The notes under the pieces: generated by a model | What the model was told of the DNA's origin: nothing | Database searches by the model: none | What the model saw: only the letters and a program-made list of their open reading frames with translations | In this document: positions 3,474 through 34,222 of the stretch, one piece after another | Layout of the letters: the number at the start of each line of letters is the position of its first letter | How positions within the stretch are numbered: the stretch's first letter is position 1 | Translations under genes and position numbers: made by a program | Source: Parahoeflea alexandrii | GTDB lineage: Bacteria > Pseudomonadota > Alphaproteobacteria > Rhizobiales > Rhizobiaceae | Assembly (NCBI RefSeq): GCF_024105735.1 | Contig: NZ_JAAAML010000003.1 | Span: forward strand, 496,001 to 560,000 | DNA: 64,000 nt | Direction of reading: 5' to 3'

Positions 3474-3916
3474 ATGCTTTATGCCCCGCAGTTTCCCATT
3501 ATGGGACGGGACGCTATCACAGCGGATCCTGACATCGGGTTAAGATAATCCCGCATCAATCCACTGGAGATCTGGCAGTGAATCGTAATGAAAAAATAAA
3601 TAATTTGCGTTTGCCGGGTCCCGGTTCGACAGAAAATCCGAGCCTGGCCGTCAGCAATCGTTTCATCTGATCTTCAAGGTGAAAGCATGGTTTTGCCGAT
3701 ACATTGCCGCGGCCCTTTGACAGGCCGGCGGGAGGCTTGATTTGCTCATTTGCGGCCCCTGCGCCGGATATGGAGCTGTGCGGCCGGTCTGCCGAGCGCC
3801 GAGCGGCGATCTTATCGGGTTTGTGGTGGCGCTCTCGACATTCCGGCCCGTGGAGCTAATTATAGTCGAGACTCGCGACCGCGATCTTGAAAACCAATCC
3901 AGCACCGGGAACAGCC
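3474..3916. other. Divergent intergenic region pepN / molybdenum hydroxylase
   Basis: 443 bp between divergent start codons; both promoters should lie here. It contains an A/T-rich patch at about 3586-3608. A GTG-started frame of 30 codons (3578-3670, GGAG about 10 nt upstream) is the only small frame with a plausible ribosome site, and its product resembles nothing I know. I see no RNA gene and no convincing -35/-10 pair; a TATAGT at 3861-3866 has no -35 at good spacing. Confidence 0.4.
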
Positions 3917-6214
3917 ATGAACATCGCGACACCTAAATTCGGCGTGGGCGCATCGGCCTTGCGCAAGGAAGACCGAAAGCTGATCACCGGCGAGGGAGCC
4001 TTTACCGATGACGTCCGGGCCGAGGGCGAGTTGCGCGCCTATGTGCTGCGGTCGGCCTATGCGTCCGCCCGGTTCCGGATTAACGATCTTGACGCGGCGC
4101 GCGCGGCGGACGGGGTCCATCTGGTGCTCACGGCCGGCGATGTCGGCCATCTCGGGCCGGTTCCAAACCAGGCGACGGTGGCGCAGCCCGACGGGACGCG
4201 TCACGCCCAGAAACACATACCGCTGCTGTGCGACGGGGAAGTCCGCCATGTCGGTGACGCGGTGGCCTTCATCGTCGCCGACAGTCTCGCCCAAGCACAG
4301 GAAGCCTCCGAACTCATCGATATCAACTGGGAGCTGGGCGAGGCCCAGGCCGGCCTCGCCACGGCGCTTGACGATGGCGCGCCGCTGGTCTGGCCGGATC
4401 TTGGCACCAATCAGGCCTATCTCTACCGTATCGGTGATGCTGCCGGCACCGACCAGGCCTTTGTCGACGCCGATCATGTCACCACCATCGATTTTCTCAA
4501 CAACCGGCTTGTGTCGAACTACATGGAAACCCGGGCGTGCCTTGCCGAATGGGACGATGCCGCCAGGAAGTTCACCCTGACGCTCGGCTCGCAGGGGGTT
4601 CATGGCATCCGCAAGACCATTGCCAAGGATATCTTTGGCATGGAACTCGAGGATTTTCGCGTCATCACCCGTGATGTGGGCGGTGGCTTCGGCACCAAGG
4701 TGTTCACCTACCGCGAGTATCCGCTGGCGCTGGAAGCCGCGCGTCAGCTCAACCGTCCGGTCAAATGGGTCTCCGACCGCACCGAGCATTTCCTCACCGA
4801 CGCCCATGGCCGCGACAACAAGGTCACCGCCTCTCTGGCGCTCGACAAGCAGGGCCGGGTGCTTGGACTGAGGATTGACGTGCTTGCCAATATGGGCGCC
4901 TATCTGAGCCAGTTTGGACCGTTCATTCCGGTGTTCGGCGCCTCGATGGCAACCGGCGTCTATGACATCCAGAATCTCGATTTCAAGCTGCGCGGCGTCT
5001 ACACCCACACCACGCCGGTGGACGCCTATCGTGGCGCGGGCCGGCCGGAGGCAGCCTTCCTGATCGAGCGGCTGATGGATGCGGCGGCGCGCGAAATCGG
5101 CATGCCGGTCGCAGAGCTGCGCCGCCGGAACTTCATCCGTCCCGAGCAGTTTCCCTACCGGACCCCGGGTGGCCGGACCTATGATGTGGGCGAGTTTGAC
5201 GGTCACATGACCCGCGCTCTCGAAAAGGCCGGCGCGGCAGAATTCCCTCGACGCGTCGAGGAGGCCAAGTCCCGGGGCAGACTGCGCGGCCTGGGCACCG
5301 CTGTCTACATCGAGGCCTGCGCCTTTGCAGGCTCTGAACCGGCGAGGCTGACGCTCGACGCCGACGGCGGCATCACGCTCTATATCGGCACCCAGACCAA
5401 CGGCCAGGGGCATGCGACCGCCTACAGCCAGTTTGTCGCCGATCAGATCGGCATCGATTTCGACAGGATCACGGTTCGCCAGGGCGATACCGCCGAATTG
5501 GCCAAGGGTGGCGGCACCGGCGGCTCGCGCTCGATCCCGCTCGGCGGCGTCTCGGTTTCCGCCGCCTCGAAGGTTCTGGCCGAAAAGATGAAGAAGCTGG
5601 CCGCCGATGAACTCGAGGCCGCCGCAGCCGATATCGAACTGGTCGATGGTGCCGCTCGCATCGTCGGCACCGATCGGGTGATCAGCTACGCCGACATGGC
5701 AAAGGCCGCCAAGACCGATGATGACCGCACTGGGATCGCCGATGTCGTTCAGGATGAGGCCACCTATCCCAACGGCACCCATGTCTGTGAAATCGAGATC
5801 GATCCGGAAACCGGCAAGGTCGAAATCGTCCGCTACACCATCGTTGACGATTTCGGCATGACCGTGAACCCGGTGCTTCTGCTCGGCCAGATTCACGGCG
5901 GCGTGGTCCAGGGCGTCGCGCAGTGTCTGAGCGAGGGGGTTGTCTATTCCGAGGATGGCCAGCTGTTGACAGCCAGCCTGATGGATTACGCGGTGCCGCG
6001 CGCCGACAACATGCCCTTCTTCGACTTCGAGACACGCAACGTTCCCTCCACCACCAATGCCATGGGCATCAAGGGGGCCGGAGAGGCGGGTACGATCGGC
6101 GCCTGTCCGGCGGCCATGAATGCCCTTGTCGATGCGCTTGACCGGGCCCGCGGCGTCCGCCACATCGAGATGCCGGCCACGCCGCAAAGGGTCTGGGAAG
6201 CCTTGAACGGCTGA
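3917..6214 (+). CDS. Xanthine dehydrogenase/CoxL-family molybdopterin-binding subunit
   Basis: Large catalytic subunit of a molybdenum hydroxylase (aldehyde oxidase / CO dehydrogenase family), 765 residues. Seen in sequence: DVGGGFGTK and TNGQGHATAY cofactor loops, the active-site loop AYRGAGR, and GAGEAG with the catalytic Glu near the C-terminus. AYRGAGR is the form II (CoxL-like) loop, not the AYxCSFR of true aerobic CO dehydrogenase, so CO oxidation is unlikely; the substrate is probably an aldehyde or heterocycle. ATG 3917 has GGGA 7 nt upstream and is preferred over an in-frame TTG at 3887. Oddity: no FAD (CoxM) or 2Fe-2S (CoxS) subunit gene is adjacent, so partners must be encoded elsewhere. 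Confidence 0.9.
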   Translation: MNIATPKFGVGASALRKEDRKLITGEGAFTDDVRAEGELRAYVLRSAYASARFRINDLDAARAADGVHLVLTAGDVGHLGPVPNQATVAQPDGTRHAQKHIPLLCDGEVRHVGDAVAFIVADSLAQAQEASELIDINWELGEAQAGLATALDDGAPLVWPDLGTNQAYLYRIGDAAGTDQAFVDADHVTTIDFLNNRLVSNYMETRACLAEWDDAARKFTLTLGSQGVHGIRKTIAKDIFGMELEDFRVITRDVGGGFGTKVFTYREYPLALEAARQLNRPVKWVSDRTEHFLTDAHGRDNKVTASLALDKQGRVLGLRIDVLANMGAYLSQFGPFIPVFGASMATGVYDIQNLDFKLRGVYTHTTPVDAYRGAGRPEAAFLIERLMDAAAREIGMPVAELRRRNFIRPEQFPYRTPGGRTYDVGEFDGHMTRALEKAGAAEFPRRVEEAKSRGRLRGLGTAVYIEACAFAGSEPARLTLDADGGITLYIGTQTNGQGHATAYSQFVADQIGIDFDRITVRQGDTAELAKGGGTGGSRSIPLGGVSVSAASKVLAEKMKKLAADELEAAAADIELVDGAARIVGTDRVISYADMAKAAKTDDDRTGIADVVQDEATYPNGTHVCEIEIDPETGKVEIVRYTIVDDFGMTVNPVLLLGQIHGGVVQGVAQCLSEGVVYSEDGQLLTASLMDYAVPRADNMPFFDFETRNVPSTTNAMGIKGAGEAGTIGACPAAMNALVDALDRARGVRHIEMPATPQRVWEALNG

Positions 6215-6378
6215 GGCGGCGGTCCGCAAGGGCCACTGTCATGCATTCGCGCCACGCAGCGGCCCATCAGCTTTTTTGATCGGACGCTGACCGCCGCCCG
6301 GGTTATGTTCGTCTCCGCACGTCGTTCTGGCGGGCGGAATCAACCTTATCCACCTTAGCGCCAGGGAATATACACCAG

Positions 6379-7365
6379 GTGACCGAACAGCCGACACCCA
6401 CGACCCCGCAAGCGGCCCCGGCGCAGCCGCCCGCCGGACAGTCGGGATCGCCGATGATCGGAATTCTGCTCAAGGTTGCCTCGGTTTCGGTGTTTGTCAC
6501 CATGTCGACCCTGATCAAGGCCTCGGGGGAGGGCATGCCCGCCGGCCAGATCGTGTTCTTCCGCTCGGCTTTCGCCATTGTTCCGATTCTTGTGTTTCTG
6601 GCAGTGCGCGGTCAACTCGACACGGCCTGGCGAACGGCCAGTCCCTTGTCGCATTTCCGCCGTGGCCTGGTTGGCGTCACCGCCATGGGGCTGGGGTTTT
6701 ATGGCATCATGCGGCTGCCGCTGCCCGACGCGATTGCCATCGGCTATGCCATGCCGTTGCTGACCGTGGTCTTTGCTGCCGTCTTTCTGGGCGAGACCGT
6801 CCGCATTTTCCGCTGGTCGGCGGTGGCCGTGGGTCTGGGAGGGGTTCTGATCATCAGCTGGCCGAGGCTCAGCCTGTTCGGCGACGGTTTCGGCTCCAGC
6901 GAGGCGCTCGGTGTCATGGCGGTGCTTGCCTCGGCCACCCTCGGCGCCACCGCGATGATCCTGGTCCGGAAACTGATCCTGACCGAAAAGACCCCGACAA
7001 TCGTTCTCTATTTCTCGCTCACCGCCACGGTTCTCTCGCTCGCCACGCTGCCGTTCGGCTGGATTGTGCCGGATTGGCAGACGCTCGGCCTGATGGCGAT
7101 GGCTGGTTTTTGTGGTGGTCTCGGCCAGATCCTGCTGACCCAGAGCTATCGCCATGCCGATGTGTCGACGATCGCACCGTTCGAATACACCTCGATCGTG
7201 CTCGGCATCCTCATCGGCTATTTCATCTTCGGCGATGTTCCGACCTGGACCATGCTTACCGGAACCGCCATCGTCGTTGGTGCAGGGATCTTCGTCATCC
7301 TGCGCGAGCATGCGCTCGGCCTCGAGCGCAAGGCCCAGCGCAAGCTGGTCACCCCGCAGGGCTGA
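6379..7365 (+). CDS. DMT-family transporter with EamA domains
   Basis: Inner-membrane drug/metabolite transporter of 328 residues with ten hydrophobic segments arranged as two EamA repeats (about 27-165 and 175-305). The proline-rich N-terminal 25 residues are soluble. The second repeat carries FCGGLGQILLTQSYRHA and FEYTSIVLGILIGYFIFGD, typical of the RhaT/EamA group. The start is GTG 6379; ATG 6454, which would remove the Pro-rich leader, is a possible alternative. Substrate cannot be inferred. It is convergent with the MFS gene, 46 bp apart. Confidence 0.88.
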   Translation: MTEQPTPTTPQAAPAQPPAGQSGSPMIGILLKVASVSVFVTMSTLIKASGEGMPAGQIVFFRSAFAIVPILVFLAVRGQLDTAWRTASPLSHFRRGLVGVTAMGLGFYGIMRLPLPDAIAIGYAMPLLTVVFAAVFLGETVRIFRWSAVAVGLGGVLIISWPRLSLFGDGFGSSEALGVMAVLASATLGATAMILVRKLILTEKTPTIVLYFSLTATVLSLATLPFGWIVPDWQTLGLMAMAGFCGGLGQILLTQSYRHADVSTIAPFEYTSIVLGILIGYFIFGDVPTWTMLTGTAIVVGAGIFVILREHALGLERKAQRKLVTPQG

Positions 7366-27171: not shown

Positions 27172-27828
27172 ATGAGCCAGCCGCCCGCCCATCTTCCCTC
27201 GGCCCGCATCAAGCGGCGCGGCCTCATGCTGGTGATTTCCTCGCCCTCCGGAGCCGGAAAATCCACCATTGCCCGCAATCTTCTTGAACATGACACCGGC
27301 CTCAGTCTGTCGGTCAGCGTGACCACGCGGCAGCGTCGCGGCAGCGAGATCGAGGGTGTGCACTACCAGTTCAAATCGCATCGTGAGTTTGAGCGGATGC
27401 GCGATTCCGAAGCGCTGCTGGAATGGGCGGAGGTACATGGCAATTACTACGGCACGCCGCGCGAGGCCGCCGAAGTGGCCATGGCCGAAGGTCGGGACAT
27501 GCTGTTCGACATTGACTGGCAGGGCGCACAGCAGCTTCAGGAAAAGATGAGCGCCGATGTGGTCTCGATCTTCATCCTGCCGCCTTCAATGGATGAACTC
27601 AGGGCCCGTCTGCACCGTCGTGCCGAAGATGCAGACGATGTGATCGAGCAACGGCTCGCCAATGCCCGTTCGGAGATCGAGCACTGGCGCGAATATGACT
27701 ACGTCGTCGTCAACGACGATCTCGACCGGGCCTATTCGGCGGTGCGCGCCATCGTCCAGGCCGAACGCCTGCGCCGCGACCGCCGTCCCGGCCTGTTCGA
27801 GTTCGTCCAGGGGCTGCTTGAAGGCTGA
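27172..27828 (+). CDS. gmk: Guanylate kinase
   Basis: Phosphorylates GMP to GDP. 218 residues. The P-loop is SPSGAGKST near residue 22. GMP-binding residues are in [18 protein letters not shown], and [13 protein letters not shown]. The late Arg in [14 protein letters not shown] and [10 protein letters not shown] are also standard. ATG 27172 is 2 bp after yicC, whose last codons contain the GGAG ribosome site. Confidence 0.97.
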
Positions 27829-27853: not shown

Positions 27854-30241
27854 TCAACTGTCGGTTCGCATCAACGGCGGCAAGGTCTGGCGTCCTTCCG
27901 ACAGGCCGATGGCGGCCTGTACGATGGCCTCAGCGTCAATCCCGAAATGCCGGTAAAGATCGCCGATCGTGCCGGTCTGGCCGAAATGCTCTACGCCCAG
28001 AGGGATGGTCTGATGGCCCTGCACCGAGCCGATCCAGCCCAACGTGGCCGGGTGGCCGTCGATGACCGTGACGATCTTGCAGTGCCGGGGCAGGGCGGCG
28101 GTCAGCGTCTCGATGTGGCTTCGGGCTTTGGAATTGCCACGTGACCGCGCCCGTTGCGCCGCCGTCCAGCCGGCGTTGAGCCGGTCGGACGAGGTGACAG
28201 CAAGCACCCCGACATCGCGCCTTGTCTCGGCAATGCGGCCCGCCGCCCGGATCGCTTCCGGCGCCACGGCGCCCTGGTAGGCGATCACCACCTCGCAGTT
28301 TGGCCCAGGCTTGCGCAGCCAGTAGGCCCCGTCGATGGCTCCCTGGCGAAAATCCTCGTCGGCACGGGTGCCCGGCTGTTCGATCGGGTTGGTGGTGAGT
28401 CTCAGATAGACCGAGCCCCCGGTCTCATCGCGCAACCAGGTGCGTTCGTCCGGATCGCCCTCGCCATCTTTCTGCATGTAGTCAAACGCCCATTTCATGA
28501 TCACCGCCAGTTCGTCGGCAAAGGCCGGCTCGAACGCCGCCAGCCCGTCCTGGCTCAAGCCGATCAGCGGCGAGCCGATCGACTGGTGAGCGCCGCCCTC
28601 GGGCGCCAGCGTGACGCCCGAGGGCGTGCCGACGATCATGAAGCGCGCATCCTGGTAGCAGGCATAGTTGAGCGCATCCAATCCGCGGGCGACAAAGGGA
28701 TCGTAAACCGTGCCGATCGGGATCAGCCTTTTGCCGAATAGCGAATGCGACAGGCCGGCGGCACCCAAGAGCAGGAACAGGTTCATCTCGGCAATGCCGA
28801 GCTCGATATGCTGGCCGTCGGGCGTGAACTCCCATTTGGCGGTCGAGGGGATGTTGTGGGTCTTGAAGGTGTCGGCGCGCGCTCCCCGGGCAAACAGCTT
28901 GCGCCGGTTGACCCAGGGGCCGAGATTGGTGGTTCCGGTCACGTCCGGCGACGTGGTCACGATCCGGGCCGCCAGCTCGCTGTCCGTCTTCGACAGCTCA
29001 TCAAGGATCTTGCCGAATGCCATCTGGGTCGAGATCTCGCGTTCGGACGCGAGCTCGATCTGAGGCGTGGCGATGACATGGTCGGAAAAGCGCCGCCGGC
29101 CCTTGGCAAAGAACGGCGTCCGCTCGAGGAACGCCTGGAGTGTGTCGGGATCCTTCACGGTTGCGAATTTCTCCCACTCTTCTCCCTCGGGAACGCCCAT
29201 GTGGCGCTGCCACTCGGCCATCTGGGCCTTGTTCATCAACCCGCCATGATTGTCCTTGTGGCCTGCAATCGGCGTGCCCCAGCCCTTGATCGTGTAGGCC
29301 AGGAAACACACCGGCCGGTCATGGTCGATCGAGGCGAAGGCATCGGCCATGGTCGAGACACAGTTGCCGCCGAGGTTTTCCATCAGTACGGCCAGTTCAG
29401 CGTCGGAACGCCCCTCGATCAGCGCGGTCACGTCACCCTGGTCGCCAAGGTCGTCCATCAGGTGCTTGCGCCACACGGCACCTCCCATGAAGGTGAGCGC
29501 GGCATAGAGCTGGTTGGGGCAATTGTCGATCCAGCCCTTGAGCTTGTCTCCGCCCTTTTCGGAGAACGCCGCGCGCTGCAGGTGGCCGTACTTGACCCGC
29601 ACCACGTCCCAGCCGAAGGCCTCAAAGATCTTCTCGACCCGCCGGAACAGGCCCTCATGGACGATGCCGTCGAGCGACTGGCGATTGTAGTCGATGATCC
29701 ACCATGTGTTGCGCAGGTCGTTCTTCCAGCCCTCCTGCAGCGTCTCGTAGATGTTGCCCTCGTCAAGCTCTGCGTCGCCGACCAGAGCCACCATGCGCCC
29801 GAGCGGCAGATCCTGGCCCCACTCCTTGGCGGCAATGTAATCCTGCACGATTGAGGCGAACGAGGTGATCGCCACCCCGAGGCCCACCGAGCCCGTGGAG
29901 AAATCGACGTCGTCGATATCCTTGGTCCGCGAAGGGTAGGACTGCACCCCGCCGAACCCACGGAAATTCTCCATCTTCTCGCGGGTCTGGTTGCCCACCA
30001 GATACTGGATCGCGTGGAAAATCGGCGAGGCGTGCGGCTTGACCGCCACCCGGTCCTCGGGTCTGAGCGCGGAGAAATACAGCGCCGTCATGATCGACAC
30101 CATCGAGGCCGATGACGCCTGGTGCCCGCCGACCTTGATCCCGTCCGCCTTGGGGCGGATATGGTTGGCATTGTGGATCATCCAGTGCGACAGCCACAGC
30201 AGCCGCTGTTCGATTGTCTTGAGATGGTCGGTACGGCTCAT
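27854..30241 (-). CDS. mdeB: AceE-like 2-oxo-acid dehydrogenase E1, probably 2-oxobutyrate-specific (MdeB-like)
   Basis: Thiamine-diphosphate enzyme of 795 residues, in the homodimeric pyruvate dehydrogenase E1 family. N-terminal motifs (NHIRPKADGIKVGGHQASSA, SPIFHAIQYLVG) follow AceE, and the cofactor site is GDAELDEGN followed by IIDYNRQSLDG. The automatic name transketolase would be misleading. Neighbouring mdeA and Lrp-type regulators recall Pseudomonas putida, where mdeB, an E1 homologue, sits with mdeA and mdeR and handles the 2-oxobutyrate released from methionine. No E2 or E3 gene is nearby, so it must borrow them or work otherwise. It overlaps the racemase gene by 4 nt (ATGA), indicating translational coupling. 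Confidence 0.83.
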   Translation of the reverse strand: MSRTDHLKTIEQRLLWLSHWMIHNANHIRPKADGIKVGGHQASSASMVSIMTALYFSALRPEDRVAVKPHASPIFHAIQYLVGNQTREKMENFRGFGGVQSYPSRTKDIDDVDFSTGSVGLGVAITSFASIVQDYIAAKEWGQDLPLGRMVALVGDAELDEGNIYETLQEGWKNDLRNTWWIIDYNRQSLDGIVHEGLFRRVEKIFEAFGWDVVRVKYGHLQRAAFSEKGGDKLKGWIDNCPNQLYAALTFMGGAVWRKHLMDDLGDQGDVTALIEGRSDAELAVLMENLGGNCVSTMADAFASIDHDRPVCFLAYTIKGWGTPIAGHKDNHGGLMNKAQMAEWQRHMGVPEGEEWEKFATVKDPDTLQAFLERTPFFAKGRRRFSDHVIATPQIELASEREISTQMAFGKILDELSKTDSELAARIVTTSPDVTGTTNLGPWVNRRKLFARGARADTFKTHNIPSTAKWEFTPDGQHIELGIAEMNLFLLLGAAGLSHSLFGKRLIPIGTVYDPFVARGLDALNYACYQDARFMIVGTPSGVTLAPEGGAHQSIGSPLIGLSQDGLAAFEPAFADELAVIMKWAFDYMQKDGEGDPDERTWLRDETGGSVYLRLTTNPIEQPGTRADEDFRQGAIDGAYWLRKPGPNCEVVIAYQGAVAPEAIRAAGRIAETRRDVGVLAVTSSDRLNAGWTAAQRARSRGNSKARSHIETLTAALPRHCKIVTVIDGHPATLGWIGSVQGHQTIPLGVEHFGQTGTIGDLYRHFGIDAEAIVQAAIGLSEGRQTLPPLMRTDS

Positions 30242-30945
30242 CGTGCAGTGTCCCCTGAAAGTGCGAAATCAACCGCAGCCTGTGCGTGAAGCTGGGTGGT
30301 GTTGAAGGCGGGAATGTCGAAATCATCCTGCGAGATCAGCAGCCCGACCTCGGTGCATCCGAAGATGATCCCGTCGGCTCCACGCGCCCGGGCAGTTTCG
30401 ATGATTCTCAGGTAACGGTTCTTCGAGACTGGGCTGATCACACCCTGGCAAAGCTCTTCGTAAATGATGCGGTGCACGTCGTCGCGCTCCTGCTGTTCGG
30501 GTACGCAGACTTCGATCCCGTGCCGCTCCCTGAGCCTCGCCTTGTAGAAGTCCTGTTCCATGGTGAAACGGGTGGCAAGCAGCAGCGGCTTGCGGCAGCC
30601 GCTGGCCTTGATCGCTTCGGCAGTCACGTCAGCGATGTGAAACAACGGGATGGAAAGCGCCGCCTGAACTTCGTCGGCACAGATGTGCATCGTGTTTGTG
30701 CCGATCAGCAGGCAGTCGGCTCCTGCCGCCTCCAGCCGGATCGCCGCTTTGACCAGCAATTTCGCCGCTTCGCTCCATCTGGCCTCGGCCTGCAGCTCCG
30801 CGATCGGCGCGAAATCGAACGAGCGCATCAGGATTTCGGCGGAGTGCAGACCACCCAGCCGTTCCCGCACCATCCCGTTGAGCAACTGGTAATAAGTGAC
30901 GGTGCTTTCCCAGCTCATCCCGCCCAGCAGACCGATCGTCTTCAT
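30238..30945 (-). CDS. Aspartate/glutamate-type amino acid racemase (YgeA-like)
   Basis: Cofactor-independent racemase of 235 residues. The start MKTIGLLGGMSWEST is typical. The active site reads GTNTMH with Thr83, and FGCTEVGLL with Cys197. The same numbers, Thr83 and Cys197, are known for the E. coli YgeA enzyme, in which Thr replaces one of the two cysteines and conversion is biased from L to D. The E. coli protein is also reported to accept homoserine. ATG 30945 has GAGAGGA upstream; a longer frame to 31116 overlaps the divergent regulator and is rejected. It is first in an operon with mdeB. Confidence 0.9.
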   Translation of the reverse strand: MKTIGLLGGMSWESTVTYYQLLNGMVRERLGGLHSAEILMRSFDFAPIAELQAEARWSEAAKLLVKAAIRLEAAGADCLLIGTNTMHICADEVQAALSIPLFHIADVTAEAIKASGCRKPLLLATRFTMEQDFYKARLRERHGIEVCVPEQQERDDVHRIIYEELCQGVISPVSKNRYLRIIETARARGADGIIFGCTEVGLLISQDDFDIPAFNTTQLHAQAAVDFALSGDTAR

Positions 30946-30991
30946 GTATCCTCTCCCGTGTCCCTTCACAGTAACATCCTGCTTGAGCAAA

Positions 30992-31011
30992 TTGATGCCA
31001 TTTTCTGCTTC
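30992..31011. promoter_or_regulatory. Element shared by both Lrp-type divergent promoters, copy 1
   Basis: TTGAT-N9-TGCTTC, matched by an identical-length element at 32830-32849 in the same orientation relative to its Lrp gene. It lies 46 nt before the first Lrp gene and 47 nt before the racemase start. The 9-nt middle is partly similar (GC followed by an A/T run). Confidence 0.5.
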
Positions 31012-31056
31012 CTGTGCCGCATTTATTGGTGATATATCGCGTATATTGAGGCGATA

Positions 31057-31524
31057 ATGGGGGTAATCCGCGTGGATGATATCGATATGGCGATTGTCCG
31101 TCGCTTGGCGGTCCATGGCCGTATTTCACTCAATGAGCTCAGCGAGGAGGTCGGGTTGAGCCCGACCCCTGTCTCGCGACGCATCCGGCAACTCGAAGCC
31201 GAAGGTATCATTACCGGCTATCACGCCAAGCTCGAAGAGACCGCGCTGGGCTTTCCGGTTTCCGTTTTCGTGTCCGTGCGCCTCGACAAGCAGGTGGACG
31301 AGGCGCTGGCGGTTTTCGAGGCCGCGATCAACCGTTTTCCGGAAGTCGTTGACTGCTGGTTGATGACCGGAAATCGCGACTACCTGATGCGCGTCGCCAC
31401 CCGGGATCTGGCGGATTTCGAGCGTTTCCTGACCCAGCAGCTGACGCGGGTGAAAGGCGTGGCGGCGATCGAATCCTCCATCCCCCTGCGCCGGGTCAAG
31501 GCTATGCCGGCAAGAACCCCGTGA
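31057..31524 (+). CDS. Lrp/AsnC-family regulator, first copy
   Basis: 155 residues. N-terminal winged helix (IDMAIVRRLAVHGRISLNEL, VGLSPTPVSRRIRQLEAEG) and C-terminal RAM ligand-binding domain (VSVRLDKQVDEALAVFE, VVDCWLMTGNRDYLMRV). Such regulators usually sense an amino acid. It is divergent from the racemase-mdeB operon across 111 bp, so that operon is its likely target. ATG 31057 has GAGG 5 nt upstream; GTG 31072 is an alternative start. Confidence 0.9.
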   Translation: MGVIRVDDIDMAIVRRLAVHGRISLNELSEEVGLSPTPVSRRIRQLEAEGIITGYHAKLEETALGFPVSVFVSVRLDKQVDEALAVFEAAINRFPEVVDCWLMTGNRDYLMRVATRDLADFERFLTQQLTRVKGVAAIESSIPLRRVKAMPARTP

Positions 31525-31572
31525 CCCCGCAAGCCTGACCGTCCTTGTCCCGCGCATTCGAGTCGTGCATCC

Positions 31573-32778
31573 TCACGCCGCTGCGCGGACTGCATCATCG
31601 CTCAGCGCCTGGGCCAGATCGCCGATGATGTCGTCGACATCTTCAAGTCCGACGGACAGACGGATCAGCCCGTCGGAAATGCCGTGCTCGGCCCGCTCTT
31701 CGGCGGTGTAGGTCGAGTGTGTCATGCTCGCCGGGTGCTGGATCAGCGATTCCGCGTCGCCCAGCGAGACCGCACGCCCGATCATGGTAAGCCGGTTCAT
31801 CAGCCGCCGTCCGGCCTCGATGCCGCCGTCGAGTTCGAAAGCGATCATCGCGCCGAAGCCGGGCATCTGCCTCAGCGCAAGCTCGTGCTGCTCGAAGCTT
31901 GCAAGACCCGGGTAATGGACCTTCGCCACGCCTTCGCTCGCCTCCAACATGGCGGCGACCTTCTGCGCATTTTCGCAATGCCGCTCCATTCTGAGCGCGA
32001 GCGTCTTCAGCCCGCGCAGGATCAGCATGGCGTTGAACGGGGCCATCACCGCGCCGGTCATGTCCTTCATGCCGAACATCCTGATTTCGGAAACCTGTTC
32101 CGCGCTGCCGACAAGCAGACCGGCGACGACATCGCCGTGGCCGCCGAGATATTTGGTCGCCGAATGCACGACGATGTCGGCGCCGAGCTCGATCGGACGG
32201 GTGAGGTAGGGGGTGGCGTAGGTGTTGTCGACAACCACCGTCGCACCGCTCGCATGGGAGATCTTCGAGATGGCCTCGATATCGACGAGCCGCATGTTCG
32301 GATTGGCCGGTGTCTCGAAATAGACGACGCGTGTCTTCTCGGAGATCACCGGTGTCAGGTTGGCCGGATCGGTCATGTCGACATGGGTGATGGTGATGCC
32401 GAACTTGGATAGCCCGTGGCGCATGAAGGCGAAGGTGCAGCCATAGAGCGTCTTGTCGACGATGACTTCGTCACCCGGGGACAAGAGCGTCCACAGGGCC
32501 GCGGTGATGGCGCCCATGCCGGATGCCAGAGCCAGCCCGGCCTCTGCACCTTCAAGCACCGCGATGCGCTGCTCCAGCAGGTCGAGCGTCGGGTTCGAAA
32601 TGCGCGAATAGATGTAGCCCGGTCGCTCGCCCGCAAACATCTCGCCGCCGGCTTCGGCGCTGTCAAAGGCAAAGGTCGACGTCAGATGCAGCGGCGGCGT
32701 CAGCGCCCCCTGATGATCCATCGGATAGTAGCCGTGGTGGATGGCGCGGGTGGAGAAGTTCTTGCTGCTGGTTTTCAT
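31573..32778 (-). CDS. mdeA: Methionine gamma-lyase
   Basis: PLP enzyme that splits L-methionine into methanethiol, ammonia and 2-oxobutyrate. 401 residues. Compared with P. putida MdeA (Tyr59, Arg61, Tyr114, Cys116, Lys211), the matching residues here are Tyr57, Arg59, Tyr112, Cys114 and Lys209, all shifted by two. Cys114 in DKTLYGCTFAF is the mark that separates gamma-lyases from cystathionine enzymes of the same family. ATG 32778 has GGAAAGGA upstream. It is divergent from an Lrp-type gene across 113 bp containing palindromes. Confidence 0.92.
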   Translation of the reverse strand: MKTSSKNFSTRAIHHGYYPMDHQGALTPPLHLTSTFAFDSAEAGGEMFAGERPGYIYSRISNPTLDLLEQRIAVLEGAEAGLALASGMGAITAALWTLLSPGDEVIVDKTLYGCTFAFMRHGLSKFGITITHVDMTDPANLTPVISEKTRVVYFETPANPNMRLVDIEAISKISHASGATVVVDNTYATPYLTRPIELGADIVVHSATKYLGGHGDVVAGLLVGSAEQVSEIRMFGMKDMTGAVMAPFNAMLILRGLKTLALRMERHCENAQKVAAMLEASEGVAKVHYPGLASFEQHELALRQMPGFGAMIAFELDGGIEAGRRLMNRLTMIGRAVSLGDAESLIQHPASMTHSTYTAEERAEHGISDGLIRLSVGLEDVDDIIGDLAQALSDDAVRAAA

Positions 32779-32803
32779 GACGGGATCCTTTCCGGTGGTG
32801 CAG

Positions 32804-32828
32804 CAAGATTGCCCTATCTTGAAGGGCA
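32804..32828. promoter_or_regulatory. Interlocked palindromes in the mdeA/Lrp intergenic region
   Basis: CAAGAT-N6-ATCTTG (32804-32821) and TGCCCT-N7-AGGGCA (32810-32828) overlap so that each uses the spacer of the other. It lies 26 nt from the mdeA start, where a bound Lrp-type protein could control it. Confidence 0.55.
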
Positions 32829-32829
32829 T

Positions 32830-32849
32830 TTGATTGCTATTTGTGCTTC
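32830..32849. promoter_or_regulatory. Element shared by both Lrp-type divergent promoters, copy 2
   Basis: TTGAT-N9-TGCTTC, as at 30992-31011. It lies 43 nt before the second Lrp gene and 52 nt before mdeA, and directly abuts the interlocked palindromes. Confidence 0.5.
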
Positions 32850-32891
32850 AACAGACATCAGTTTTGGCATTATCTGCCAGGGAGCGGGAAG

Positions 32892-33353
32892 ATGGACAGC
32901 AAGGATCGCCAGATCATCCGGGCGCTGCAGGCCAATGCCCGCATGACCAACCAGGATCTCGCTGCAGCGGTGAACCTGTCACCCTCGCCATGCCTGCGCC
33001 GGCTTCGCAACCTCGAGGACAGCGGCGTGATCCGCGGCTACAGCGTCGATGTCGACGCCAGGGCCTACGGACTGCCGATGACGGTCTTCATCCGCATCCG
33101 GCTCGAGCGGCACACGGGCAGCCATATCCAGGAGTTCGAGGCCCGCATCAGGGCGATCGATGAAGTGCTCGAATGCCATCTGATGACCGGACCGGCGGAT
33201 TATCTGCTGAGAGTCGTGGTCGCCGGTCTTGACCATTACGAGGACTTTATCCGCAACCGCATCCACGCCATCGGCGGCATTGCGTCGATCGACACGAGCA
33301 TCGTCTACGGAACCGTCAAGAAAACCGGCGTGTTTCCGGCGCTGCCGTCATAG
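32892..33353 (+). CDS. mdeR: Lrp/AsnC-family regulator, MdeR-like
   Basis: 153 residues. DNA-binding helix-turn-helix (MDSKDRQIIRALQANARMTN, VNLSPSPCLRRLRNLEDSG) and RAM domain (VLECHLMTGPADYLLRVVV). In P. putida the Lrp-like MdeR is divergent from mdeA and activates it with methionine; the same arrangement here supports the name. ATG 32892 has GGGAG and GGGAAG upstream. It shares the family but not close sequence with the first Lrp gene 1.4 kb away. Confidence 0.87.
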   Translation: MDSKDRQIIRALQANARMTNQDLAAAVNLSPSPCLRRLRNLEDSGVIRGYSVDVDARAYGLPMTVFIRIRLERHTGSHIQEFEARIRAIDEVLECHLMTGPADYLLRVVVAGLDHYEDFIRNRIHAIGGIASIDTSIVYGTVKKTGVFPALPS

Positions 33354-33391: not shown

Positions 33392-34222
33392 CTACAGAGC
33401 CTGAGCCAGCGCGCAGAATTCGGCGACACTCAGCGTCTCGGCGCGGCGCGTGGGCTCGATCCCGAGCCGTTCCAGCAAGGCTTCTCCGCCCAAGGGTTTC
33501 AGGCTCTGCCTCAGCATCTTGCGGCGCTGGCCGAAGGCGGCGTGGGTGACGCGTTCGAGCCGTGCGAGGTCGCAGGGCAGGCGGTCGGCCAGCGGTTCGA
33601 GCTGCACCACGCTCGACGTGACCTTCGGCGGCGGCGTGAAGGCCTGTGGCGGCACGTCGAAAAGGATCTCGCTGCGCGCGATCCATCCTGCCAGCACGCC
33701 CAGGCGGCCGTAGTGGTTCGATCCCGGCACGGCCACGATCCGCTGGCCGACCTCCTTCTGGAACATCAGCGTCATTGACGTCCAGAACGGATGGTCGACA
33801 TCGGCAGTGAGCCAGTTGATCAGCAATTGCGTGCCGACATTGTAGGGCAGGTTGGCGACGATCTTGGCCGGAGCGCCATTGGCCAGGGCCGCAAGGTCGG
33901 TCTCGAGCGCATCTCCCTCCACCACCTCGAGCCGACCGGGATAATGTGCAGCGATCTCGGCCAGGATCGGCAGGCAGCGCGGGTCGCGCTCGACCGCGAC
34001 GACGCGGGAAGCGCCCTGGGCCAGCAGCGCCCGGGTGAGCCCACCCGGGCCGGGGCCGATTTCGAACACGGTGAAGCCCTCGAGAGGGCCGGCCGACCGG
34101 GCGATCTTGGCAGTCAGGTTCAGGTCGAACAGGAAATTCTGCCCAAGCGCTTTTTTCGGCGCCAGCCCGTGCGTGGCAACGACATCGCGCAGCGGTGGAA
34201 GGCCGTCGGGGGTGGTGGCCAT
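33392..34222 (-). CDS. rsmA: 16S rRNA dimethyladenosine transferase
   Basis: Dimethylates two adjacent adenosines near the 3' end of 16S rRNA during 30S assembly. 276 residues. [14 protein letters not shown]-binding [13 protein letters not shown], and the catalytic [10 protein letters not shown] are present, as is the C-terminal helical domain. Its ATG shares one base with the pdxA stop (TGATG), so translation is coupled. It is the last gene of the lptF-lptG-lptD-surA-pdxA-rsmA unit. Confidence 0.97.

Follow-up and report, generated by a model that had tools for sequence, protein, structure and literature searches.

Why would a methionine gamma-lyase (MGL), a short AceE-like thiamine-diphosphate E1, a YgeA-like amino acid racemase and two Lrp/AsnC-type regulators (Lrp1 and Lrp2) stand side by side between gmk and rsmA in Parahoeflea alexandrii, and do they belong together at all? 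The question concerns a 64,000-nucleotide stretch of the Rhizobiaceae assembly GCF_024105735.1 (contig NZ_JAAAML010000003.1, positions 496,001 to 560,000 of the forward strand; the whole stretch is called the window below, and window coordinates are used), in which a preliminary description had recognised a methionine-catabolism island resembling the mdeR-mdeA-mdeB locus of Pseudomonas putida, with the racemase and the second regulator as additions to it. The answer arrived at here is that of an mde-like methionine island, the E1 of which is of a different, widely spread family recurring beside several 2-oxobutyrate-forming enzymes, and in which the gene upstream of the E1 is now a racemase. 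To the reading of the block as a catabolic island, where MGL splits methionine, the E1 takes the 2-oxobutyrate and the upstream gene is exchangeable, a probability of about 0.7 is given.

As proposed, the island would have entered a variable slot on which gmk and rsmA converge from the two sides. MGL, controlled by the divergent Lrp2 through a palindromic operator, would convert L-methionine into methanethiol, ammonia and 2-oxobutyrate, and the E1, controlled by the divergent Lrp1 by way of a racemase-E1 operon, would carry out the oxidative decarboxylation of 2-oxobutyrate towards propionyl-CoA, with the E2 and E3 components coming from elsewhere in the genome. The E1 would be the constant hub, and the gene upstream of it an exchangeable cassette (MGL, 1-aminocyclopropane-1-carboxylate (ACC) deaminase or threonine dehydratase, each making 2-oxobutyrate), the place of which, held by threonine dehydratase in relatives, would in the window's genome be occupied by the YgeA-like racemase.

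Methionine gamma-lyase and the likeness to known loci

All five open reading frames (ORFs) are present, in the order E1, racemase, Lrp1, MGL and Lrp2, with the positions and strands that the preliminary description had given them. The identity of MGL (31573..32778, minus strand, 401 amino acids (aa)) is secure: it passes both NCBIfam equivalog cut-offs (NF005695, 736.2 versus 666; TIGR01328, 620.8 versus 549.7), the solved structures closest to it are those of L-methionine gamma-lyases (1gc0 and others), and gamma-elimination of L-methionine is predicted, which bears out the methionine catabolism proposed earlier as far as this enzyme is concerned. Among transcripts enriched on algal exometabolites, one paper tabulates SPOA0318 (megL) of Ruegeria pomeroyi at a value of 28.9 (PMC9870897), and another states, with the data not shown there, that R. 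pomeroyi MegL is able to form methanethiol from methionine (PMC7157515). The tag SPOA0318 would correspond to the mgl of the R. pomeroyi DSS-3 megaplasmid locus compared here (SPO_RS21425-21435, L025), which has counterparts of MGL (79% identical), of the E1 (84%) and of Lrp2 (75%, the Ruegeria regulator gene being divergent from mgl), as well as the palindrome discussed below, but which differs from the window in having a single regulator, mgl and the E1 gene adjacent on one strand and no racemase, and in being plasmid-borne.

The P. putida mde locus combines an MGL with an Lrp-type regulator divergent from it and with an AceE-like E1 that acts on 2-oxobutyrate. The likeness to it holds for the MGL gene with its divergent Lrp-type gene (Lrp2, for which an MdeR-like role may be supposed) and for the presence of an AceE-like E1 as such; it does not extend to the family of that E1, which is another and shorter one than that of mdeB-annotated proteins (the comparison was with these and not with P. 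putida MdeB itself), nor to a common operon, as Lrp1 lies between MGL and E1 on the opposite strand. The window E1 is instead found in an operon of its own with the racemase, beside a second Lrp gene, and the whole block in a variable gmk-rsmA slot. MGL, a threonine dehydratase and E1 are consecutive on one strand in the same-genus genome G210 (L069).

Genes adjoining E1 across genomes

The E1 family was found in 100 of the 199 sampled genomes of the order (match at E 1e-40) and in 27 of the 61 genomes of a set of relatives, the window's genome included. Its neighbours were examined in a named set, consisting of the best 80 loci among the matches listed and therefore biased towards close relatives, and in an order set, consisting of 96 of the order's 100 E1 loci; the contig of L079 is identical with that of the same-genus genome G211, so that this locus is counted in both the named and the genus sets. 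Directly upstream of E1 and on the same strand, the named loci have MGL in 14/80 (in one of these, L098, from a metagenome-assembled genome, it is split into two pieces 2.7 kb apart, 3716-6956), ACC deaminase in 5/80 and threonine dehydratase in 2/80, and the order loci have MGL in 7/96, ACC deaminase in 2/96, threonine dehydratase in 4/96 and a member of the cystathionine-gamma-synthase family in 1/96, the MGL-type match of L250 being such a protein (PRK07049) and not an MGL. The seven order-set MGLs are all over the TIGR01328 cut-off, as are the four scanned from the named set (L080, L085, L127, L136) over that of NF005695, and the five named-set ACC deaminases, all placed upstream of E1 by clustering too, pass TIGR01274 with 552-581 bits (cut-off 392). 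Threonine dehydratases of two subfamilies occur in this position, one of the PRK07334 kind (the four order-set copies, 602-623 against a cut-off of 496) and one of the NF004771 kind (cut-off 317), represented by L146, the one scanned of the two named loci (474), and by the Hoeflea copy L069 (495). Within 450 bp downstream of E1, no same-strand copy of the enzymes searched was found apart from one racemase (L111), ACC deaminase being queried there in the order set only.

MGL, ACC deaminase and threonine dehydratase have one product of their main reactions in common, 2-oxobutyrate, and because the suppliers upstream of the E1 share it, 2-oxobutyrate is the likely substrate, as the preliminary description had supposed; on the basis of gene linkage, the protein is most likely the E1 of a 2-oxobutyrate dehydrogenase. 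Among order-set genomes having both genes, MGL is no more than 5 kb away from E1 in 8 of 15 (7 of 14 without the window's) and ACC deaminase in 4 of 43; the estimate of what chance would produce supposes genes placed at random in 4.5 Mb and genomes independent of one another. On an E1 tree (of the quick kind, with 95 E1 rows and one support measure), the four rows labelled with ACC deaminase require four changes, each imposed by a well-supported fork, and the 20 rows labelled with MGL require 12, of which six or more are forced. The linkage of MGL and E1 is seen far beyond Hoeflea and at other sites, e.g., on Ruegeria and Sulfitobacter plasmids. What was found is not one gene order repeated everywhere with no tie to methionine. 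The acdR-acdS pair offers a parallel, in that an enzyme dependent on pyridoxal phosphate and making 2-oxobutyrate (the ACC deaminase product according to PMC8584133) stands with a divergent Lrp gene and, in seven loci (five named, two order-set), directly upstream of the same E1 family, although its substrate is a different one.

Several observations nevertheless pull the other way. No such enzyme is directly upstream of E1 in 59/80 named loci (five of which, L083, L085, L090, L092 and L107, have MGL within 3 kb) or in 82/96 order loci, the neighbour usually being a lone divergent Lrp gene, if any of the genes searched is there at all; the NF004771 dehydratase shows linkage to E1 in 0/43 order-set genomes having both, the link being observed in Hoeflea and L146 only; and the linked order-set genomes are not independent, since four of the eight MGL cases belong to one family code (f41) and two to another (f44), while the four dehydratase cases belong to two family codes. 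From other substrates, pyruvate can be formed by MGL, threonine dehydratase and ACC deaminase too. To this may be added that the E1 is without the N-terminal stretch by which E. coli AceE binds E2, that there is no E2 or E3 gene within the island, that the de novo motif scan found no palindrome between Lrp1 and the racemase in the window, and that a racemase is present in the slot of three genomes (G199, G200, G208) which have no E1 match anywhere.

Could the protein then be the E1 of a general auxiliary pyruvate or broad 2-oxoacid dehydrogenase, the lyases sharing nothing but a type of regulator with it or feeding it with pyruvate from cysteine, serine or D-amino acids? Its relatedness to AceE (181 bits on TIGR00759), the predominance of copies with only an Lrp gene beside them and the side reactions of the named lyases would fit; against this, it is 2-oxobutyrate that the main reactions of the three enzymes have in common, the supplier labels need several changes on the E1 tree, and the genome already has a PdhA/PdhB/PdhC-like cluster of its own (named by eye), which makes such a function unlikely.

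Some loci have further or different neighbours. In L188 (G044), an Lrp-ACC deaminase and an Lrp-MGL module stand in a row upstream of one E1, i.e., two suppliers with their own regulators, and L083 (Sulfitobacter mediterraneus) and L092 (Tateyamaria) show MGL, a cystathionine-gamma-synthase-like gene (37% identical to MGL), an OsmC-like ORF (named by eye) and E1. An FAD-oxidoreductase-like and an AhpD-like ORF (both named by eye) are directly upstream of E1 in L196-L198. Elsewhere in the window's genome, unlinked to the island, lies an ACC deaminase gene that scores over the curated cut-off and has an Lrp-like ORF divergent from it (C7:987028-988038, L174).

The E1 family and its possible E2 partner

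The E1 gene (27854..30241, minus strand, 795 aa) encodes the Pfam domains Transketolase_N, PDH_E1_M and Transketolase_C_1, and scores far under the cut-offs of both the AceE model (TIGR00759, 181.1 bits versus 859.9) and the mdeB-named one (TIGR03186, 153.5 versus 1408.3). The N-terminal segment of AceE is absent from it, residue 12 aligning to position 80 of TIGR00759 and residue 28 to AceE residue 94, and the stop-to-stop frame comprises only 804 codons; its annotated short relatives from Ruegeria (796 aa), Sphingobium (780 aa) and Rhodococcus (783 aa) are all without these residues as well. The AceE catalytic residues H106, H142, Y177, E571, Y599 and H640 are kept in all 13 aligned rows of the family, whereas E401 is not kept and H407 falls in a shortened loop. 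Judged from these comparisons, the protein is of a separate short E1 family, neither AceE nor the mdeB-named one. Membership of the latter was rejected on the TIGR03186 score, on an identity of 26% to two mdeB-annotated plasmid proteins (897 and 898 aa) and on the N-terminus, both of these proteins starting about 78 residues earlier, and the earlier idea of an MdeB equivalent by descent falls with it, P. putida MdeB itself being outside the comparison. A transketolase was likewise rejected, with NCBIfam transketolase scores far below the cut-offs and the AceE residues kept. The plasmid records listed mostly label the family as transketolase or DXS N-terminal domain protein, and no paper on it or on its link to ACC deaminase was found in a literature search of partial coverage. 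In three Rhizobium plasmids (H87, H90, H91), the E1 matches cover 38-39% of the query in two pieces, and these are possibly decayed copies.

With what E2, then, would such an E1 work? Directly downstream of the E1 gene, the Rhodococcus (40% identical) and Sphingobium (54.5%) relatives carry a gene for an E2, and this suggests a true E1 role and an E2 supplied in trans in the window's genome. The latter has four E2 genes over the Pfam cut-off, none of them in the island; judged by eye, three are beside E1 genes of their own and the fourth is near an E1-type ORF, and a dedicated orphan E2 was therefore discarded as a candidate. In L159, on an Aminobacter aminovorans plasmid, an mdeB-annotated E1, an E2 and lpdA are found in a row with a divergent Lrp gene, and there is no MGL in that stretch.

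That the protein is instead a thiamine enzyme acting independently of any E2 (a 2-oxoacid decarboxylase, an acyloin synthase or something transketolase-like) and serving to remove toxic 2-oxobutyrate would agree with the missing N-terminal residues in it and in its Ruegeria, Sphingobium and Rhodococcus relatives, with the island being devoid of an E2 and with the labels in the plasmid records, but the equally short Rhodococcus and Sphingobium proteins are the very ones with an E2 gene next to them, and, with the AceE catalytic residues kept and the transketolase models failed, this is quite improbable.

Regulators and a recurrent palindrome

Lrp1 (31057..31524, plus strand, 155 aa) and Lrp2 (32892..33353, plus strand, 153 aa, divergent from mgl) are both over the gathering scores of PF13404 (AsnC-type helix-turn-helix) and PF01037 (ligand-binding), and each resembles the regulators found in the corresponding position elsewhere. 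Lrp2 is a closer match than Lrp1 to the Lrp genes divergent from MGL in 18/18 cases of the named set and 7/7 of the order set, and Lrp1 is the closer match to those divergent from E1 in 31/34 and 37/50, respectively. The layout with two regulators, one divergent from mgl and the other from E1, is also seen in L085 (Labrenzia alba), L090 (Roseibium) and L107 (Rhodobacteraceae), so the second Lrp gene is hardly the special addition it had been taken for.

Between lrp2 and mgl, at 32864..32880, lies a palindrome, TTGGCA-N5-TGCCAG, which may be the operator through which Lrp2 regulates mgl. Its consensus form, TTGGCA-N5-TGCCAA, is matched at 10 or more of the 12 positions in 29 of the 34 lrp-mgl intervals, across genera, and in many of them sits at a distance of 11 bases from where the lrp match ends; the palindrome was first spotted in an alignment of 13 of these 34 intervals, which makes the test partly circular, the shuffles used preserve single-base content only, and one interval (L099), all but one of the bases of which are N, scored nothing. 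No other site in the 64 kb matches the 16-base pattern exactly; with up to one mismatch, there are five matches (two of which are this site on both strands) against 1.5 expected, a number reached by 4 of 100 shuffles. A separate de novo scan covered 89 intervals that lie between an Lrp gene and either E1 or the enzyme upstream of it; the same TTGGCA-N5 half-site and spacing came out as the top motif, present in nine of them, compared with at most three for any motif in 20 shuffled sets. A promoter and terminator scan gave one and six sites, respectively, against shuffle means of 1.0 and 3.1.

The gmk-rsmA slot

The block is flanked by gmk, encoding guanylate kinase (27172..27828, plus strand; TIGR03263, 241 bits versus a cut-off of 160), and by rsmA (33392..34222, minus strand; TIGR00755, 238 bits versus 171), which converge on the five genes from either side and were found in 58 and 56, respectively, of the 61 genomes of the relatives set. 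In the 16 genomes in which the gap between them was measurable, out of 18 (the window's genome and 17 of the same genus, with G205 and G206, 77 and 75% complete, falling out), it measures 12 bp in G201, 28 bp in G209 and between 848 and 15085 bp in the remaining 14, the window (5569 bp) among them. The slot is therefore empty in 2 of the 15 other measurable same-genus genomes and variably filled in 13, and the gap is a true insertion slot into which the block was inserted, as had been suspected from the proximity of gmk and rsmA in other Rhizobiales. That proximity is itself common, with a gap of at most 150 bp in 11 of the 18 rest-of-family genomes with a gmk match and in 8 of 23 rest-of-order genomes (8 of the 23 have no rsmA match or have rsmA on another contig), but not universal. 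None of the five island genes is an integrase or transposase, and the base composition makes no sharp step (GC 0.60-0.66 in 1-kb pieces).

What fills the slot varies considerably. The same five genes as in the window are found in G202 and G212; MGL, threonine dehydratase and E1 in G203, G210 and G213 (G210 without Lrp1); MGL and E1 with mere traces of the dehydratase (residues 2-16, weak, and 284-322) in G215; E1 and threonine dehydratase in G211; and E1 with a remnant matching MGL residues 349-401 in G214. Threonine dehydratase alone is present in G204, and a racemase without E1 or MGL in G200, G208 and G199, the last with a transposase-like gene (named by eye) in addition. The 15 kb of G207 hold none of these genes, the slot of G206 is cut by a contig end with E1 beside gmk, and G205 has neither a gmk nor an rsmA match. 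Other cargo was also noted at L066, L072 and L074, namely the 15 kb of G207 and receptor-like and transposase-like genes (by eye) in G213 and G215. Such a medley, racemases and a dehydratase on their own included, is what a permissive slot collecting unrelated genes would show, in which case the racemase, E1 and MGL would be together by chance and the block no functional unit; given the linkage of MGL and E1 far outside Hoeflea, at other sites and in half of the other order-set genomes with both genes, that is very unlikely for the block as a whole.

The racemase and its exchange with threonine dehydratase

For the racemase taken by itself, in turn, a chance presence is quite possible. The gene (30238..30945, minus strand, 235 aa) ends in a four-base ATGA overlap (30238..30241, minus strand) of its stop codon with the start of E1, in agreement with the translational coupling claimed before, which is possible. 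Its product passes the subfamily model TIGR00035 (234.8 bits versus 93.1), has 3ojc and 5hqt as solved relatives and keeps T83 and C197, presumably the catalytic pair as in EcL-DER; it thus resembles E. coli YgeA/EcL-DER in family and in these two residues, but differs in staying under the equivalog cut-off (NF007569, 271 bits versus 417; a comparison of sequences only).

As a fixed member of the island with a set link to methionine, however, the racemase had to be rejected: threonine dehydratase stands in its place directly upstream of E1 in G203, G210, G211 and G213, and the three genomes having the racemase with no E1 at all speak for an independent role. The gmk+rsmA and MGL trees group the window with G210 with good support (in the E1 tree, the window is nearest G210 without support, and the grouping is left open there), and the window has the racemase and Lrp1 where G210 has threonine dehydratase. 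Their DNA similarity ends at 30226, 15 bases inside the E1 start, and returns at the MGL stop (31573); for the pair G202 and G203, it ends at the E1 start and returns near the Lrp1 start. The gene next to E1 is a case of exchange in place, and in both comparisons the break points fall at gene borders. Because of the traces in G215 and the spread of the dehydratase, the latter is suggested to have come first, the racemase tree being too weak to settle the direction.

What might a racemase do there? YgeA is reported as a homoserine racemase in vivo in PMC12838360, and homoserine kinetics of low efficiency are listed in PMC8142540; on these grounds, the enzyme could possibly turn D-homoserine or D-methionine into the L form for MGL, being otherwise an independent passenger. 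A single further case of proximity is L111, where a 47% identical racemase is directly downstream of E1, beside a convergent gene scoring under the MGL cut-offs.

Implications

A bolder version of the proposal, namely an unrecognised and widespread family of 2-oxobutyrate dehydrogenase E1s without the AceE N-terminal segment, acting as a hub fed by MGL, ACC deaminase, two kinds of threonine dehydratase and, in the window's genome, a homoserine-type racemase (which would turn D-homoserine or D-methionine into MGL substrate), each feeder with an Lrp of its own and the MGL and E1 regulators reading one TTGGCA-N5-TGCCAA palindrome, is put forward tentatively and is, as a whole, rather doubtful. 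Half of the sampled genomes of the order carry the E1 family, yet the plasmid records seen name it transketolase or DXS N-terminal domain protein. If it is indeed the E1 of a 2-oxobutyrate dehydrogenase, this would put a name to a missing step after the breakdown of methionine, threonine and ACC in many bacteria of soil and sea, including roseobacters that have MGL and bacteria carrying ACC deaminase.

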